From positions 124,001-188,000 of the forward strand of contig NZ_VXCP01000002.1 in NCBI RefSeq assembly GCF_011355085.1: a DNA stretch of 64,000 nt. The letters run 5' to 3'. The translations under genes and the position numbers were made by a program. Below, piece after piece: positions 38,317 to 44,769 of this stretch; position 1 is the first letter of the stretch; each line of letters opens with the position of its first letter. Below the pieces are notes generated by a model. It was not told where the DNA came from. It saw only the letters and a program-made list of their open reading frames with translations, and searched no databases. Source of the DNA: Pseudomonas akapageensis (GTDB lineage Bacteria > Pseudomonadota > Gammaproteobacteria > Pseudomonadales > Pseudomonadaceae).

Positions 38317-38355
38317 GCTCACATGCGCGCACCAAAAGAGTGCGCGCATGTGAGC
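38317..38355 (-). terminator. 15-bp perfect hairpin after quiP
   Basis: GCTCACATGCGCGCA (38317-38331) is the reverse complement of 38341-38355, with a 9-base loop, beginning 5 bp past the quiP stop. No T-run follows on the minus strand. Confidence 0.65.
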
Positions 38356-38360
38356 TCTCA

Positions 38361-40898
38361 TTATTTCCCTGGCACCAAAGTCAGGCGCTTGCTGCCATAG
38401 GTCTTGTCGAAGTTTTGCGGTTGCATCGGGAAGCTCATGTACTGGCCCTTGAGCCAGGCATCGATGCCATCGGCGTAGTGCGGGCTGGCCGGGTTACCGG
38501 ATTGGCCCGTACTGTTTAGACCGATCATGGGTTCGGCCTGGCCGAAATCGACCACCATGCGCATGGCCGGAATCAACCAGGTATCGAAGTCCTGCCCCCA
38601 GTGATAGGCCGAGGTGTTCAGGGTCGTGTGGTCGCCGCCTGCAGGGACCGGGCCGCGATTCAGGTAACTGCTCAAGGCATTGATCCCGGTGCGATCGCCT
38701 ACGCTCATGAAGGGCGCCAGTTTGCTGCTGTCGGAAGTCCAGGTGTAGTGGTGCAGCTTGCCCCATTGCCAGGCCCTGCGATCGTTGCCCAGCTGGCTTT
38801 CGCCGCTGCTGATGGCTGCAGCCAGGCTGCGCGCGAGGATGGCCGGTTTGTCTTCTTTCTGCGCGGTCTTGATGTCATCCCAGTACGGGCTGTCTTCGCG
38901 GCCGAGCAGGTGGTCGGCCTGGGCCGAGTAGGACAGGTCGGCATTGGCGACGAAGGCCTTCCAGGTCGGGCTGGTTTCCGGGCCCAGTTCATCGAGGAAG
39001 GTCTGCTTGGCGCTTTCCTGCAGGAACAGTTCGTACAGTGCGGCGTCGGCTGATTGTGGCGCGAGCTTGCCATCGAAGGCCATCAGCCGGCTGTAGGCTT
39101 CGCGTGCCTTGCTGCGATCGGCTTCGGGCAAGGCGTCGATAGCCTGCTTGAGCGGCTGGGCCATGCCCGGGGCTTCGAACATCTTCTTCAATTTGACGGC
39201 GAAGAGGGTGGTCTGGTCGTACTGCATGGCGATCATGCTGCGCGTGTCGTGCTTGCCGACACCGGCCAGTTCGGCAATGCGTTCGCCACGCTCGGGGTAG
39301 TACCAGGAGTTGGACAGTTGCATGCCATAGCCGCGGGGCACGGTGCGCTGGTTGGCGGTACCGAGCCAGCCCTGGGCCGGGTCCTGGTCGTAAGGGTGCA
39401 GCATGGGGTCGGCGTAACCGTCCCAGTCATAGCGCCCCTCCCAACCCGGAGACGGCAGCAGGCCGACGCCTTCGCGCCGGTTAGGGAAGCGGCCGGTCAC
39501 TTGCCAGCCGATATTCTGGGCGTCGGCGAACATCAGGTTCAGCGCCGAGGCACGGATTTCGCGGCTGGCTTCGAAGGCCTTTTCCACGTTCTGGGCGCGG
39601 GACAGGTCGAACAGCGCGTCCATGCTCTTGTCGCCCTTGAGGTCCGGCGTCTGCAGGGCCAGGCCATAGCCACTGTTGAACGCCATGGGTTGCAAGTCAT
39701 TCTTGCGCTCGCCCAGGGCACTGTTGAGCAGCGGGCCGTGACGGGTTTCATAGACCGTCTCGCGGATCGGGCGCTGGCCCTTGATGAAATAGGTTTCGTT
39801 GCGGGCGATGGCCGGTTGCCACTTGCCGTCGACCTCATAGAGCAGGCGGTTGCCTTCGCGCTTGACCTTTTCCAGGAACAGGTCCTGGTTATCGCCCATG
39901 ACCATGGTCATGCCCCAGGCCAGCTTGCCATTGAAGCCTGCGACGATGCCCGGCACACCGGCGAGGGAAACGCCGGCGGCCTGGTACTTCGGCGAGCGGA
40001 TCTGCACATAGTTCCAGGCCGAGGGAATCGCGATCGGCAGATGGGTATCGTTGGCCAGCAGGCTTTTGCCCAGGCGGCTGCGCTGGGGCGCGATGGCCCA
40101 GTTGTTCGAGGCGGCCACGCCGAGCATGTTGAGGTCGGTGAGTTGGCTGGCGACTCTGTTCAGGTCGCCAAGGCCTGCGATCTGGCCGCCCAGGCTCAAG
40201 CCCTTGAGCTTGTCGGCTTCATCGAAGGGCAACGGCTCGTCCGGATAGCTCGGCAGCAGCCAGGCCAGCTTGTCGCTGCCGACTTTCTGCGCCAGGACCA
40301 GGGAAGCGATTTCTTCCTGCAGATTGACCGACAGGCCGAAATTCAACAGGCAGAAGATCAGCGCAGAGTCTTCCGGCTTCCAGTACTCCGCGCGATAGCC
40401 GGACTTGGCCAGGTCCATCGGCAGCTTGTCGCGGTAGCGGAACAGGTAGGCGTTGACCCCGCGGGCGTAGACTTCGAAGAAGCGCTTGAGCCGGGGCGAG
40501 GAGGCTGCATAGAGCTCGTTGGCATCCTTCTTCAGATTGACCGTGCGCATGAAACGGTCGATCTCGAGCACGCCGGGACCGGCCATTTCAGCCAGACGAC
40601 CCTGGGCGATCAGGCGCATGCCGACCATCTGGCTGATGCGGTCACTGGCATGCACGTAACCCATGGCGAACAGGGCGTCGTGGAAGTTGCTGGCTTCGAT
40701 CAGCGGCATGCCCATGGCATTGCGCCGCACCGAAACGTTCTGCGCCAGCCCCTTGAGCGGTTCCACCCCGGTGGTGGGTGGCAGGCTGTCGTTGCTGCCA
40801 GAGAGCCAGGACTGGCATCCGGCCAGGCTCAACAGCCCGACCACAGCTGCGGCGGCGCCGAACCGGGGAAGAAAATGTGTGAAGGCTGGCGAGGCCAT
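38361..40898 (-). CDS. quiP: Acyl-homoserine lactone acylase, penicillin acylase family
   Basis: An 845-aa Ntn hydrolase precursor very similar to P. aeruginosa QuiP. A lipoprotein-like signal (LLSLAGC, C28) starts the protein. The alpha subunit runs to about 263 and the autocatalytic cleavage site precedes the nucleophile S264 in [10 protein letters not shown]. The beta subunit contains [23 protein letters not shown] and [11 protein letters not shown]. QuiP hydrolyses long-chain AHL signals. The start at 40896-40898 gives the family N-terminus MASPAF; 22 upstream in-frame codons do not. Confidence 0.93.
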
Positions 40899-41027
40899 GG
40901 CAAGGCTCCTGCGGGGCTGACAACGGAAAGGCGCTACGTTAGTGAGCGCGATGCCGCCACGCAAGGAGGGGCAGGGCCTTTATTTGCAAAAAAGAAAACG
41001 GCCTGATTGTCAGGCCATTTCTGGTGC

Positions 41028-42245: not shown

Positions 42246-42740
42246 TCACCACCAATATTTGCCAAAATTTTGCGGGTTCGCCCAGAACTTGGCGTTCAGC
42301 CAGTCCGGCACCTGTTTGTATTCGCGCAGATCATAAGTAAACAGGCTCAATACCTGCTCGTCGCGCTTGAAACGTTCACTGGCCTGAAGGGCCAGGGAAA
42401 AGAAGTCGGTGTCGCTCCAGCCGCAGGCAGCCAGGTCGGCAAGTACGGCAATGCGGCTGGCGTTGAGATTGCGAATGCCGCCCAGCAGTTCCAGGCCGCT
42501 GCGTTTGTTCAGTTGTTCGAGGCAGCCGACCGCCAACGCGAGATCGAAGCGTTGCCCGGCCAACTCCTTGGGCAAAGGCCCAGGCTCCGCCACGAATACA
42601 TCGGCATCCGGGTGGGCAGACTTGAAAGCGTCCAGCGCCGGAAAGCCGGTACCGACCAGCAAAAGACGCTTGGGCGCGTAAAGTTCAAGCAGTGCCGCCA
42701 GTGCTTGTTGGGGCGTGCGCGAAGAAAAAACATCAGTCAT
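42246..42740 (-). CDS. DUF6231-like conserved hypothetical protein
   Basis: A 164-aa protein with a Rossmann-like N-terminal half ([38 protein letters not shown]), suggesting a methyltransferase-like fold without clear catalytic motifs. The C-terminus is Trp/Tyr rich (NFGKYWW). Its stop lies 4 bp before the ychJ-type start, so they are probably cotranscribed. Pseudomonas-conserved, function unknown. Confidence 0.75.
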
Positions 42741-42907
42741 CTAGTGTCCTCTTTCCTTAGTTGCCAAGACTAGCCGGGTCTTCGTTTGCGGCCTAGGCTT
42801 TCAAGTTCGTTATTTACATCATGGCTTATTGCTGGCGGAGATGGAGTGACCGGTCTTTACTTCTTGAGTGTGGTTTTTTTGCTGTTCCCTCCTGAGGAGA
42901 TTTGTTA

Positions 42908-43528
42908 ATGAGCATTTTGCGCACAGCGTTACCCCTGGTTCTGCTAACCAGTGTGTTGACTGGTTGTGCAGGTCTGCAAAAAACCGACTGGCCGATGTGC
43001 GCTGCTGTGGGCGGCGTGACGGGTGCCGGGTTGGGTGCCACAGAGAACGCAACCTGGGCTGGTTGGGGTGCTCTCATTGGCGCAGGCTTTGCGTCCGCCT
43101 ATTGCTGGGTGCATGGTGGCGTACCTGAGAAACACGAACCACCACCACCTGCTCCAGTAGAGGAAGCGGTCGTGGTCAAGGAAGAAGTGATCGTTATTCG
43201 TGATGTCCTCTTCGAGTTCAACTCGGCCAAGCTGACCAGCTCCGACAAGATGCGTCTGGACAAGGTTGCCACTCGCCTGAAACAGGAAGCACCGAGTGCC
43301 CGCCTGAGCGTAACCGGACATACCGACAGCGTGGGTAGCGATGCCTATAACCAGAAACTCTCGCAGCGGCGTGCGCAGTCGGTGACTGATTATCTGGTGG
43401 AAAGCGGCGTACCGCGCAGCAGCTTCGTTTCGGTCGTGGGCATGGGTGAAAGCCAGCCGATAGCCGATAACAGTACTGCGGATGGACGCGCCATGAACCG
43501 CCGCGTGGAGATCAAGATCAACCGCTGA
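42908..43528 (+). CDS. OmpA-family lipoprotein with glycine zipper
   Basis: A 206-aa lipoprotein: signal LLTSVLTGC with lipid cysteine C21, a hydrophobic Gly-rich segment (GGVTGAGLGATENATWAGWG), a Pro-rich linker, then an OmpA peptidoglycan-binding domain (VTGHTDSVGSDAYNQKLSQR, NRRVEIKI). Start ATG 42908 follows GAGGAG by nine bases; TTG 42902 is an alternative. The next gene is a paralogue in tandem. Confidence 0.88.
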   Translation: MSILRTALPLVLLTSVLTGCAGLQKTDWPMCAAVGGVTGAGLGATENATWAGWGALIGAGFASAYCWVHGGVPEKHEPPPPAPVEEAVVVKEEVIVIRDVLFEFNSAKLTSSDKMRLDKVATRLKQEAPSARLSVTGHTDSVGSDAYNQKLSQRRAQSVTDYLVESGVPRSSFVSVVGMGESQPIADNSTADGRAMNRRVEIKINR

Positions 43529-43573
43529 AACCCGTGCCATCACCGGCTTGTGAAGTGTTACAGGCCGGTCTTT

Positions 43574-43611
43574 ACTCCTGTGTGACCGGCATTGGCCGGT
43601 GACACAGGAGT
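43574..43611 (+). promoter_or_regulatory. Hairpin sequestering the ribosome site of the second OmpA gene
   Basis: ACTCCTGTGT (43574-43583) pairs perfectly with ACACAGGAGT (43602-43611), and ACCGGC (43585-43590) with GCCGGT (43595-43600), one mismatch between them, loop ATTG. The Shine-Dalgarno AGGAG (43606-43610) of the gene at 43619 is inside the stem. It could act as a thermosensor, riboregulator target or coupling device. Confidence 0.75.
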
Positions 43612-43618
43612 ATTATTT

Positions 43619-44332
43619 ATGAGTGTGTTCGCCAAGGCAGCGGTTCCCCTCCTTCTCCTCAGCAGCGTACTTTCAGGCTGCGCCACCACCAGCGATGGCA
43701 GTGCCCCCCTCAATCAACGTACCTGGCCTGTCTGCAGCCTGCTTGGCGGGTTGGCCGGTGGCGGGCTCGGTTCTATCGAAAGTTCGGCATGGGCAGCTGG
43801 CGGGGCGGCATTTGGAGCCATTGCCGGCGGCCTGATCTGCTATGCCCAGGATGGCGACGAAGACGGTGATGGCGTGTACGACCGCCGTGACCGTTGCCCC
43901 GACACACCCGCTAACACCCCTGTCAGTCACAATGGTTGCCCGCTGCCGCAATATCCGGTCAGCGAGCCGGCGCCTGCACCCGTTTCCGATGTCATTACCT
44001 TGAATGATGAAGATAACGTCAGTTTTGCCGTCAATTCCGACGAGTTGACGCCTTCGGCTACCCGCAAGTTGACGGCCTTGATGGACAGGCTCAACAACCC
44101 TGGCGTAACCCGCATCAAGGTCGTCGGTTATACCGACAGCCAGGGCGCAGACGCCTATAACCAGCGTCTGTCGGAACGTCGCGCAAGGAGTGTCGCGGAT
44201 TTCCTGATCACACAGGGCATTTCGGCGGACAAGGTCACCAGTGAGGGACTGGGCGAGAGCGAGCCGATCGCCGATAACGCCACCGCAGAAGGCCGCGCGC
44301 AGAACCGCCGGGTGGAACTCCATTTGAATTGA
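43619..44332 (+). CDS. OmpA-family lipoprotein with calcium-type acidic loop
   Basis: A 237-aa paralogue of the preceding gene: lipobox LLSSVLSGC (C20), a matching WPVCSLLGGLAGGGLGSIES segment, then an extra thrombospondin type-3-like loop DGDEDGDGVYDRRDRCPDTP, a probable calcium site, and the OmpA domain (VVGYTDSQGADAYNQRLSER, NRRVELHL). The ribosome site is inside a stable hairpin. It may be translated after read-through from the first gene. Confidence 0.9.
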   Translation: MSVFAKAAVPLLLLSSVLSGCATTSDGSAPLNQRTWPVCSLLGGLAGGGLGSIESSAWAAGGAAFGAIAGGLICYAQDGDEDGDGVYDRRDRCPDTPANTPVSHNGCPLPQYPVSEPAPAPVSDVITLNDEDNVSFAVNSDELTPSATRKLTALMDRLNNPGVTRIKVVGYTDSQGADAYNQRLSERRARSVADFLITQGISADKVTSEGLGESEPIADNATAEGRAQNRRVELHLN

Positions 44333-44493
44333 AACTGACCTCCGGCACTGGCACAGGAGACCGCCAAGCCGTTACTGTGCCTGCAGGAGATTTCGTGTCG
44401 TGGTTCAACAAATAAAGCTTGAACCCTGCGCGAAACTCGCAGGGGTGATTCCGATCGCTCCTCTATACCAAGAATAATCTGCAAGGGGCGTAT

Positions 44494-44769
44494 ATGAAGT
44501 GGTTTTGGGGTGTGGGCAAGGCACTGACGGTAGTGTTCTGGTGGGTGGTGCTGTTGAATCTGTTCATGCCCATGGTCAATCCGTTCCATCAATTGATCAA
44601 TGCCGCAGGCGCCGCGCTGTTGCTGATCCATGTACTTGAAGTCTTGCTGTTCAATCACGGCTTGCGCGGCCGCAGCCATCGCTGGTTCGATCGTTTGCAG
44701 ATTCTGTTGGTGGGCATCTTCCACGTGCAGTCGATTCGGGCACCGGTGGGGGGCACCCGCCATGCGTAA
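44494..44769 (+). CDS. DUF1145 small membrane protein
   Basis: A 91-aa protein with two or three hydrophobic segments (TVVFWWVVLLNLFMPM, AAGAALLLIHVLEVLLF) and the motif FDRLQILLVGIFHVQSIR typical of DUF1145 (YhhL-like). It overlaps the collagen-like gene by eight bases and is probably translationally coupled with it. AAGGGGCG precedes the ATG. Function unknown. Confidence 0.85.
   Translation: MKWFWGVGKALTVVFWWVVLLNLFMPMVNPFHQLINAAGAALLLIHVLEVLLFNHGLRGRSHRWFDRLQILLVGIFHVQSIRAPVGGTRHA

Follow-up and report, generated by a model that had tools for sequence, protein, structure and literature searches.

A conserved hairpin over the ribosome site of the second of two tandem OmpA-family lipoprotein genes in Pseudomonas, proposed as a read-through silencer

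The ribosome site (SD) of the second of two tandem OmpA-family lipoprotein genes lies in a hairpin that is real and exceptional, not a product of chance. This hairpin probably acts as a silencer of the second gene on transcripts that read through from the first. The window, which is the whole stretch of DNA analysed (64,000 nucleotides), contains the two genes as p1 (42908 to 43528, plus strand, 206 aa; Pfam OmpA, E 3.2e-26) and p2 (43619 to 44332, plus strand, 237 aa; Pfam OmpA, E 2.1e-22). Two hairpins lie between them, the second of which is the SD hairpin of p2. The proposal builds on the structure of this hairpin, its conservation, four two-sided changes in its stem, a promoter-like motif of fixed spacing, and the near absence of a long outer stem in p1.

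Structure and genomic setting of the SD hairpin

The outer stem consists of 11 perfect pairs between an anti-SD arm (43573 to 43583, plus strand; UACUCCUGUGU), which overlaps both the -10 box and the stretch from there to the predicted transcription start, and an SD arm (43602 to 43612, plus strand; ACACAGGAGUA), which holds the SD AGGAG at 43606-43610. A G.G mismatch (43584/43601) separates it from the inner hairpin (43585 to 43600, plus strand), in which six pairs (43585-43590 with 43595-43600) enclose a loop of four bases (43591-43594) and at which the 5' end of p2's own mRNA is predicted. The start codon of p2 is the ATG at 43619-43621. An earlier sequence-only reading had placed AGGAG in a stem extended by six further pairs, which agrees with this structure; the stem, given there as 10 bp, has 11, and the hairpin starts at 43573, one base before the 43574 given.

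The fold has a free energy of -32.6 kcal/mol (z -8.65), and none of 200 dinucleotide shuffles was as stable. In a scan of 63,960 segments of 40 bases (both strands, step 2) equal stability was found at one other place only, a palindrome at 38317. Opening of the p2 SD was predicted to cost 13.6 kcal/mol in a 115-base context, at the top of 57 ORF starts of the window, for which the next-highest cost was 7.4 and the median 2.8 kcal/mol; these starts were picked mechanically by an SD-like motif, are uncurated and may include non-genes.

Two other repeats were recorded in the window. The palindrome at 38317-38356 is its most stable of 40 bases, with -33.4 kcal/mol on both strands, and lies just past the end of a long minus-strand ORF (38361-40964). 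On the 3' side of p2, positions 44346-44385 carry a GGCACAG..CTGTGCC inverted repeat with CACAGGAG, which resembles the SD arm of p2; judging by its sequence, it is perhaps a terminator of p2 or a decayed copy of the SD element.

The position of the SD within a stem near the AUG would suit an RNA thermometer, as the sequence-only reading had suggested. This is very improbable and was rejected on predicted energies calculated from 10 to 60°C. The predicted opening cost is 18.7, 14.2, 13.3 and 11.9 kcal/mol at 10, 37, 42 and 50°C, respectively, with no opening of the SD stem predicted in the physiological range, and the stem is a perfect helix, whereas the helix of ROSE and fourU thermometers is imperfect. 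A search of 42700-44600 against Rfam gave no family at the gathering score, thermometers included; four matches fell below the threshold, none of them a thermometer.

The gene order is constant among relatives. In all 75 loci with both genes on one strand p1 is immediately 5' of p2, and the distance from the p1 stop to the p2 start is 84-143 bases. The co-directional upstream gene is p1 in 75 of the 76 p2 loci with enough flank; in the remaining one, L093, the upstream gene fell outside the p1 class, yet is OmpA-type. The upstream neighbour of p1 is divergent in 86 of 87 loci. PP_1121 and PP_1122 of P. putida may be a p1/p2 pair. The p1 of the window, with 206 aa, is shorter than the approximately 229-236 residues matched in relatives and seems to have lost a linker of about 25 residues. 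Since p1 and p2 adjoin and are co-directional, ribosomes ending p1 might melt the stem and so allow translation of p2. Such translational coupling was rejected on the distance between the two genes and is extremely unlikely: the p1 stop (43526-43528) lies 44 bases before the stem, and another hairpin lies between.

The promoter-like motifs and the hairpin at the end of p1

Each gene is preceded by a promoter-like motif. That of p1 (42832 to 42861, plus strand) comprises CTGGCG (42832-42837), 15 bases and GTCTTTACT (42853-42861); that of p2 (43547 to 43576, plus strand) comprises CTTGTG (43547-43552), 15 bases and GTCTTTACT (43568-43576). From their sequence, the p2 motif would be the promoter of p2, and the best reading of both motifs is that they form one promoter class. 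In the first 19 p2 leaders compared, CTTG was followed by the GTCTTTACT box at a fixed distance throughout, one leader having a one-base deletion. Of 56 unique p2 promoters, 54 have CTTG and a GTCTTTACT-type box separated by exactly 15 bases; all 45 unique p1 promoters have [CG]TGGC[GA] at this same distance, their spacer being less conserved. The parser demanded a loose -10 box, and part of the conservation of that box is thus by construction. All 87 p1 loci and 126 of 132 p2 loci were parsed, the six dropped (L011, L113, L120, L121, L122 and L146) having one-base indels, an altered -10 box or masked bases. Past the GTCTTTACT box the p1 sequence is variable, while that of p2 shows conservation and complementarity to the SD arm.

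Within the own genome, p1 and p2 are the only sites of the composite motif CTKGNN-N15-GTCTTTACT, and two unrelated-looking places are gained when one mismatch is allowed. The GTCTTTACT box by itself was rejected as a general promoter box, with 12 copies in the own genome compared to 36 for the reversed control; a CTKG box at 15 bases accompanies only the copies of p1 and p2. Rewritten as TTGTGA-N17-TTTACT, the p2 motif has a sigma-70-like geometry, yet carries T at the second -10 base. Sigma-70 promoters have TTGACA at -35, 16-18 bases and TATAAT at -10, and A is favoured at the second -10 position. A promoter scan reported nothing at the p2 motif, which was below the scan threshold. In the available part of one report, cmaX is predicted to have the promoter TTGACT-N17-TTTACT, a start mapped by 5' RACE lying downstream, and the SigX consensus is described as not precisely defined (PMC7641640). 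For an assignment to SigX or AlgU, no match for the motif was found in the open-licence literature.

Two loci of relatives carry the p1-type motif in other settings. In L201 (G010:C1:1576072, locus positions 1501-1660) CTGGCA-N15-GTCTTTACT precedes a DUF1508 gene (Pfam E 1.9e-41) and, 3' of the motif, a small inverted repeat (CTTGAGG..CCTCTCAAG) covers the ribosome site of that gene. In L083 (G243:C682, locus positions 1440-1990) a promoter of the p1 type is joined to an SD hairpin of the p2 type; its 3 kb hold no p1 or p2 match, the next gene is DUF1145, and from the sequence this locus looks like a deletion between two similar elements.

The first of the two intergenic hairpins (43542 to 43569, plus strand) has 12 pairs and a free energy of -18.7 kcal/mol (z -3.0), and its U-rich tail doubles as the p2 -10 box. 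It is the probable 3' end of p1, where it would act as a weak terminator. A terminator scan did not report 43542-43569; the G+C-rich stem is present and the tail is only UCUUU. A hairpin at the p1 end recurs in relatives with a different sequence, and 54 of 55 unique regions from the p1 stop to the -10 box fold at -10 kcal/mol or below; these regions are G+C-rich, and the shuffle control (z -3.0) applies to the window region alone. In seven unique regions (L086, L088, L089, L098, L099, L107 and L111) a strong hairpin followed by TTTT lies directly 5' of the CTTG box, so p2 would need a promoter downstream of the hairpin there, and the only promoter-like candidate between the TTTT hairpin and p2 is the CTTG motif. 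The hairpin of four others (L094, L095, L105 and L106) is placed further 5', its 3' arm containing the CTTG box, and the spacing from CTTG to the -10 box is unchanged. The comparison of these two kinds of region indicates that the p1-end hairpin can shift relative to the motif, while the spacing of the motif is fixed.

These arrangements bear on three other explanations of the SD hairpin. The first is a riboregulator, in which all p2 mRNA would start upstream and include the hairpin, to be opened by an sRNA, an RNA-binding protein or some other factor, much as the sequence-only reading had proposed for an sRNA. Many sRNA-controlled envelope mRNAs are known, and the extreme and conserved sequestration of the SD would fit. 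This explanation would require a promoter upstream of the p1-end hairpin, which in the seven regions is a classical hairpin with TTTT, and the 5' arm overlaps a motif that is also present at p1 without the long stem; a riboregulator is given a small but appreciable probability.

A second explanation is a processing switch, in which RNase III or RNase E would cut the read-through double hairpin and remove the 5' arm, activating p2. RNases are known to open ribosome sites in other systems, and the two adjoining hairpins are stable in read-through RNA, together reaching -64.8 kcal/mol for 43540-43680; both the fixed-spacing motif over the arm and the stem-less motif of p1 would be left unexplained, and such a switch is considered unlikely. 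Slightly less probable still is a palindrome acting at the DNA level, as an operator over the -10 box and start region with an incidental RNA fold. The repeat does overlap the likely promoter, and the only equally stable sequence of the window is also a palindrome; against an operator, one arm is the SD itself at the proper distance from the ATG, p1 elements have the promoter motif without the outer repeat, and G-U pairs are tolerated (GT cells, L009), which a DNA operator would have no reason to accept.

Conservation of the outer stem

A hairpin with a C(U)CC-type strand opposite the SD was present in all 18 p2 orthologues first compared (at least 55% identity); one SD-stem pair is broken in L019. 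A covariance model built from 19 sequences (the window and the 18 orthologues) matched 216 of 398 Pseudomonas genomes at E <= 0.001, and the named carriers belong to the P. fluorescens and P. putida groups. One strong site and four weaker matches at E 0.2-4 were obtained with the model in the own genome. A REP-like or otherwise dispersed repeat was considered and rejected, as the hairpin pattern has a single site in the own genome, which, being a palindrome, matches on both strands.

Pairing was counted in loci returned or fetched rather than in all 216 genomes, and this set was deliberately enriched in diverged copies; some loci share a genome, a duplication that counts of unique sequences remove. 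Among 80 named loci, 75 were parsed, and in 61 of these all nine outer pairs are formed. Four of the nine outer pairs have undergone a two-sided change that preserves pairing, each once on a tree of 129 p2 proteins: in L019, L009 (to G-U), L092 and the L086 clade. Summed over the nine pairs, the same tree has 32 changes in the 5' arm versus 9 in the 3' arm, mostly uncompensated. Tests treating the pairs as independent gave no significance, with too few events on the tree. The real arms are paired in 91.2% of cells, versus a mean of 89.0 and a maximum of 90.4 in 1000 swaps of arms between sequences, a control that leaves the relatedness between sequences in. We count the two-sided changes and the swap comparison as support for selection on the outer stem at the RNA level.

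The p1 elements serve as a control, having the same promoter class, a divergent neighbour and no long outer stem. Seven or more contiguous outer pairs are found in 48 of 67 unique p2 bodies versus 1 of 51 unique p1 bodies. The long outer stem thus goes with the downstream gene position, which is counted as support for the silencer. Exactly four contiguous pairs (CUCC/GGAG) are formed in 28 of the 51 unique p1 sequences; they may be a trace of common origin. Most p1 leaders, judged by eye and uncounted, have a hairpin RTCGG..CCGAY at the position of the inner hairpin; the p1 leader of the window is without it.

The strength of the lock varies among p2 elements. Opening costs at least 6 kcal/mol in 68 of 83 unique elements, and the lock is weak (below 6 kcal/mol) in the other 15. 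Seven loci (L113, L120, L121, L222, L232, L244 and L268) combine a weak lock with an altered -10 box, the named ones being mostly P. putida-like. As a separate observation, L104 (G075:C7, locus positions 1501-1577) has kept a 16-pair SD hairpin, with U-A to C-G changes, though no p2 was detected downstream.

Transcript origin and comparison with known systems

As a read-through silencer of p2, the SD hairpin would work as follows. Genes p1 and p2 would each be driven by their own promoter of one class. Transcripts from p1 that run past the p1-end hairpin would carry both arms of the stem, locking the p2 SD, and p2 would remain untranslated from them. The p2 -10 box would share 43573-43576 with the anti-SD arm and the start site would lie at the end of that arm, so that p2's own mRNA would begin at or just before the inner hairpin, without the anti-SD strand and with a moderately accessible SD. 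The predicted transcription start is at 43583-43585 (plus strand), 7-9 bases after the -10 hexamer, which ends at 43576; we infer it from the position of the motif, along with read-through past the p1-end hairpin and a translation of p2 that depends on the transcript. Since the likely -10 box and start region coincide in part with the anti-SD arm, this arm is probably absent from p2's own transcripts.

Predicted energies are in line with this scheme. Opening of the SD would cost 14.2 kcal/mol in read-through RNA versus 4.1-4.2 for starts at 43583-43586; a start at 43580 gives 4.2 and one at 43577 gives 7.2 kcal/mol. Over 83 unique p2 elements the median cost is 11.0 (long RNA) versus 3.4 kcal/mol (short RNA), and 62 of the 83 differ by at least 5 kcal/mol; for 57 p1 elements the medians are 4.6 and 2.2, and 10 of the 57 differ by at least 5. 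From these costs, run-on messages of p1 are predicted to be silent for p2, and p2's own messages to be translatable. The claim of the sequence-only reading that translation is shut off finds good support in the predicted energies and the conservation, for transcripts holding both arms. On the same model p2 is likely to be produced only upon activation of the gene itself.

Several findings count against a silencer. They include the p2 elements with a weak lock, a TTTACT box without A at its second position, the mostly uncompensated changes in the 5' arm, and the four-pair CUCC/GGAG match of p1, for which the model has no need. The short p2 mRNA is also predicted to be not fully open, as ACACA can pair with the early coding region.

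Tentatively, the locus may be a compact chromosomal checkpoint of transcript origin, coupled to a narrow, undescribed promoter class (CTGGCR or CTTGNN, N15, GTCTTTACT). Within about 70 bases a gene-end hairpin, the next promoter and an anti-SD strand would overlap, and p2 would be translated only from mRNA begun at its own promoter. The promoter class would serve the OmpA lipoprotein pair alone in the own genome, with one relative adding DUF1508 (L201). If true, this narrow use would suggest a sigma factor or activator dedicated to the class; as it stands, a narrowly used promoter motif comes to light without an assigned sigma factor or activator.

If the silencer is true, translation of a chromosomal gene depends on the start point of its mRNA, RNA-seq coverage of p2 by read-through is not expression, and an overlap of promoter and anti-SD strand is a simple insulation device. 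The logic of transcript origin has been documented in detail for phage T4; here it would be conserved in cell-envelope lipoprotein genes over a large part of the genus Pseudomonas.

Among known OmpA-related systems, the ompA thermometer of Yersinia pseudotuberculosis resembles p2, as far as the available part of its description goes, in that a structured 5' UTR covers the ribosome site of an OmpA-family gene (PMC8245352). It opens at host temperature, whereas the p2 stem is predicted to remain closed above 50°C, and p2 encodes an OmpA-domain lipoprotein. PA1041 (Pba) of Pseudomonas aeruginosa is an OmpA-family peptidoglycan-binding lipoprotein; it shares with p1 and p2, classified by Pfam match, the OmpA domain and the Pseudomonas origin, and the accessible text mentions no leader structure (PMC7947798). 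Papers found on PA1041 deal with the protein or its abundance. No description of the p2 SD hairpin was found in the open-licence literature.

The closest comparison is with the genes e, soc, 49 and I-TevI of T4. According to the parts of the sources available, their SD is held in a stable structure on early read-through transcripts, and transcripts from late promoters are without the 5' strand and have a free SD (PMC3014915, PMC2988022). The p2 gene differs from what those parts describe in its location on a bacterial chromosome, with no temporal phage sigma switch known and a function that is predicted only, and in a p1-end hairpin that also overlaps the promoter. Common to both systems are a stable SD hairpin, which in p2 is predicted to hold the SD when the transcript starts upstream, and a position downstream of another transcribed gene, co-directional in the case of p2. 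A promoter placed so that the proximal transcript loses the 5' arm would be a further common feature, predicted for p2 from the position of the constant-spacing motif that overlaps this arm.
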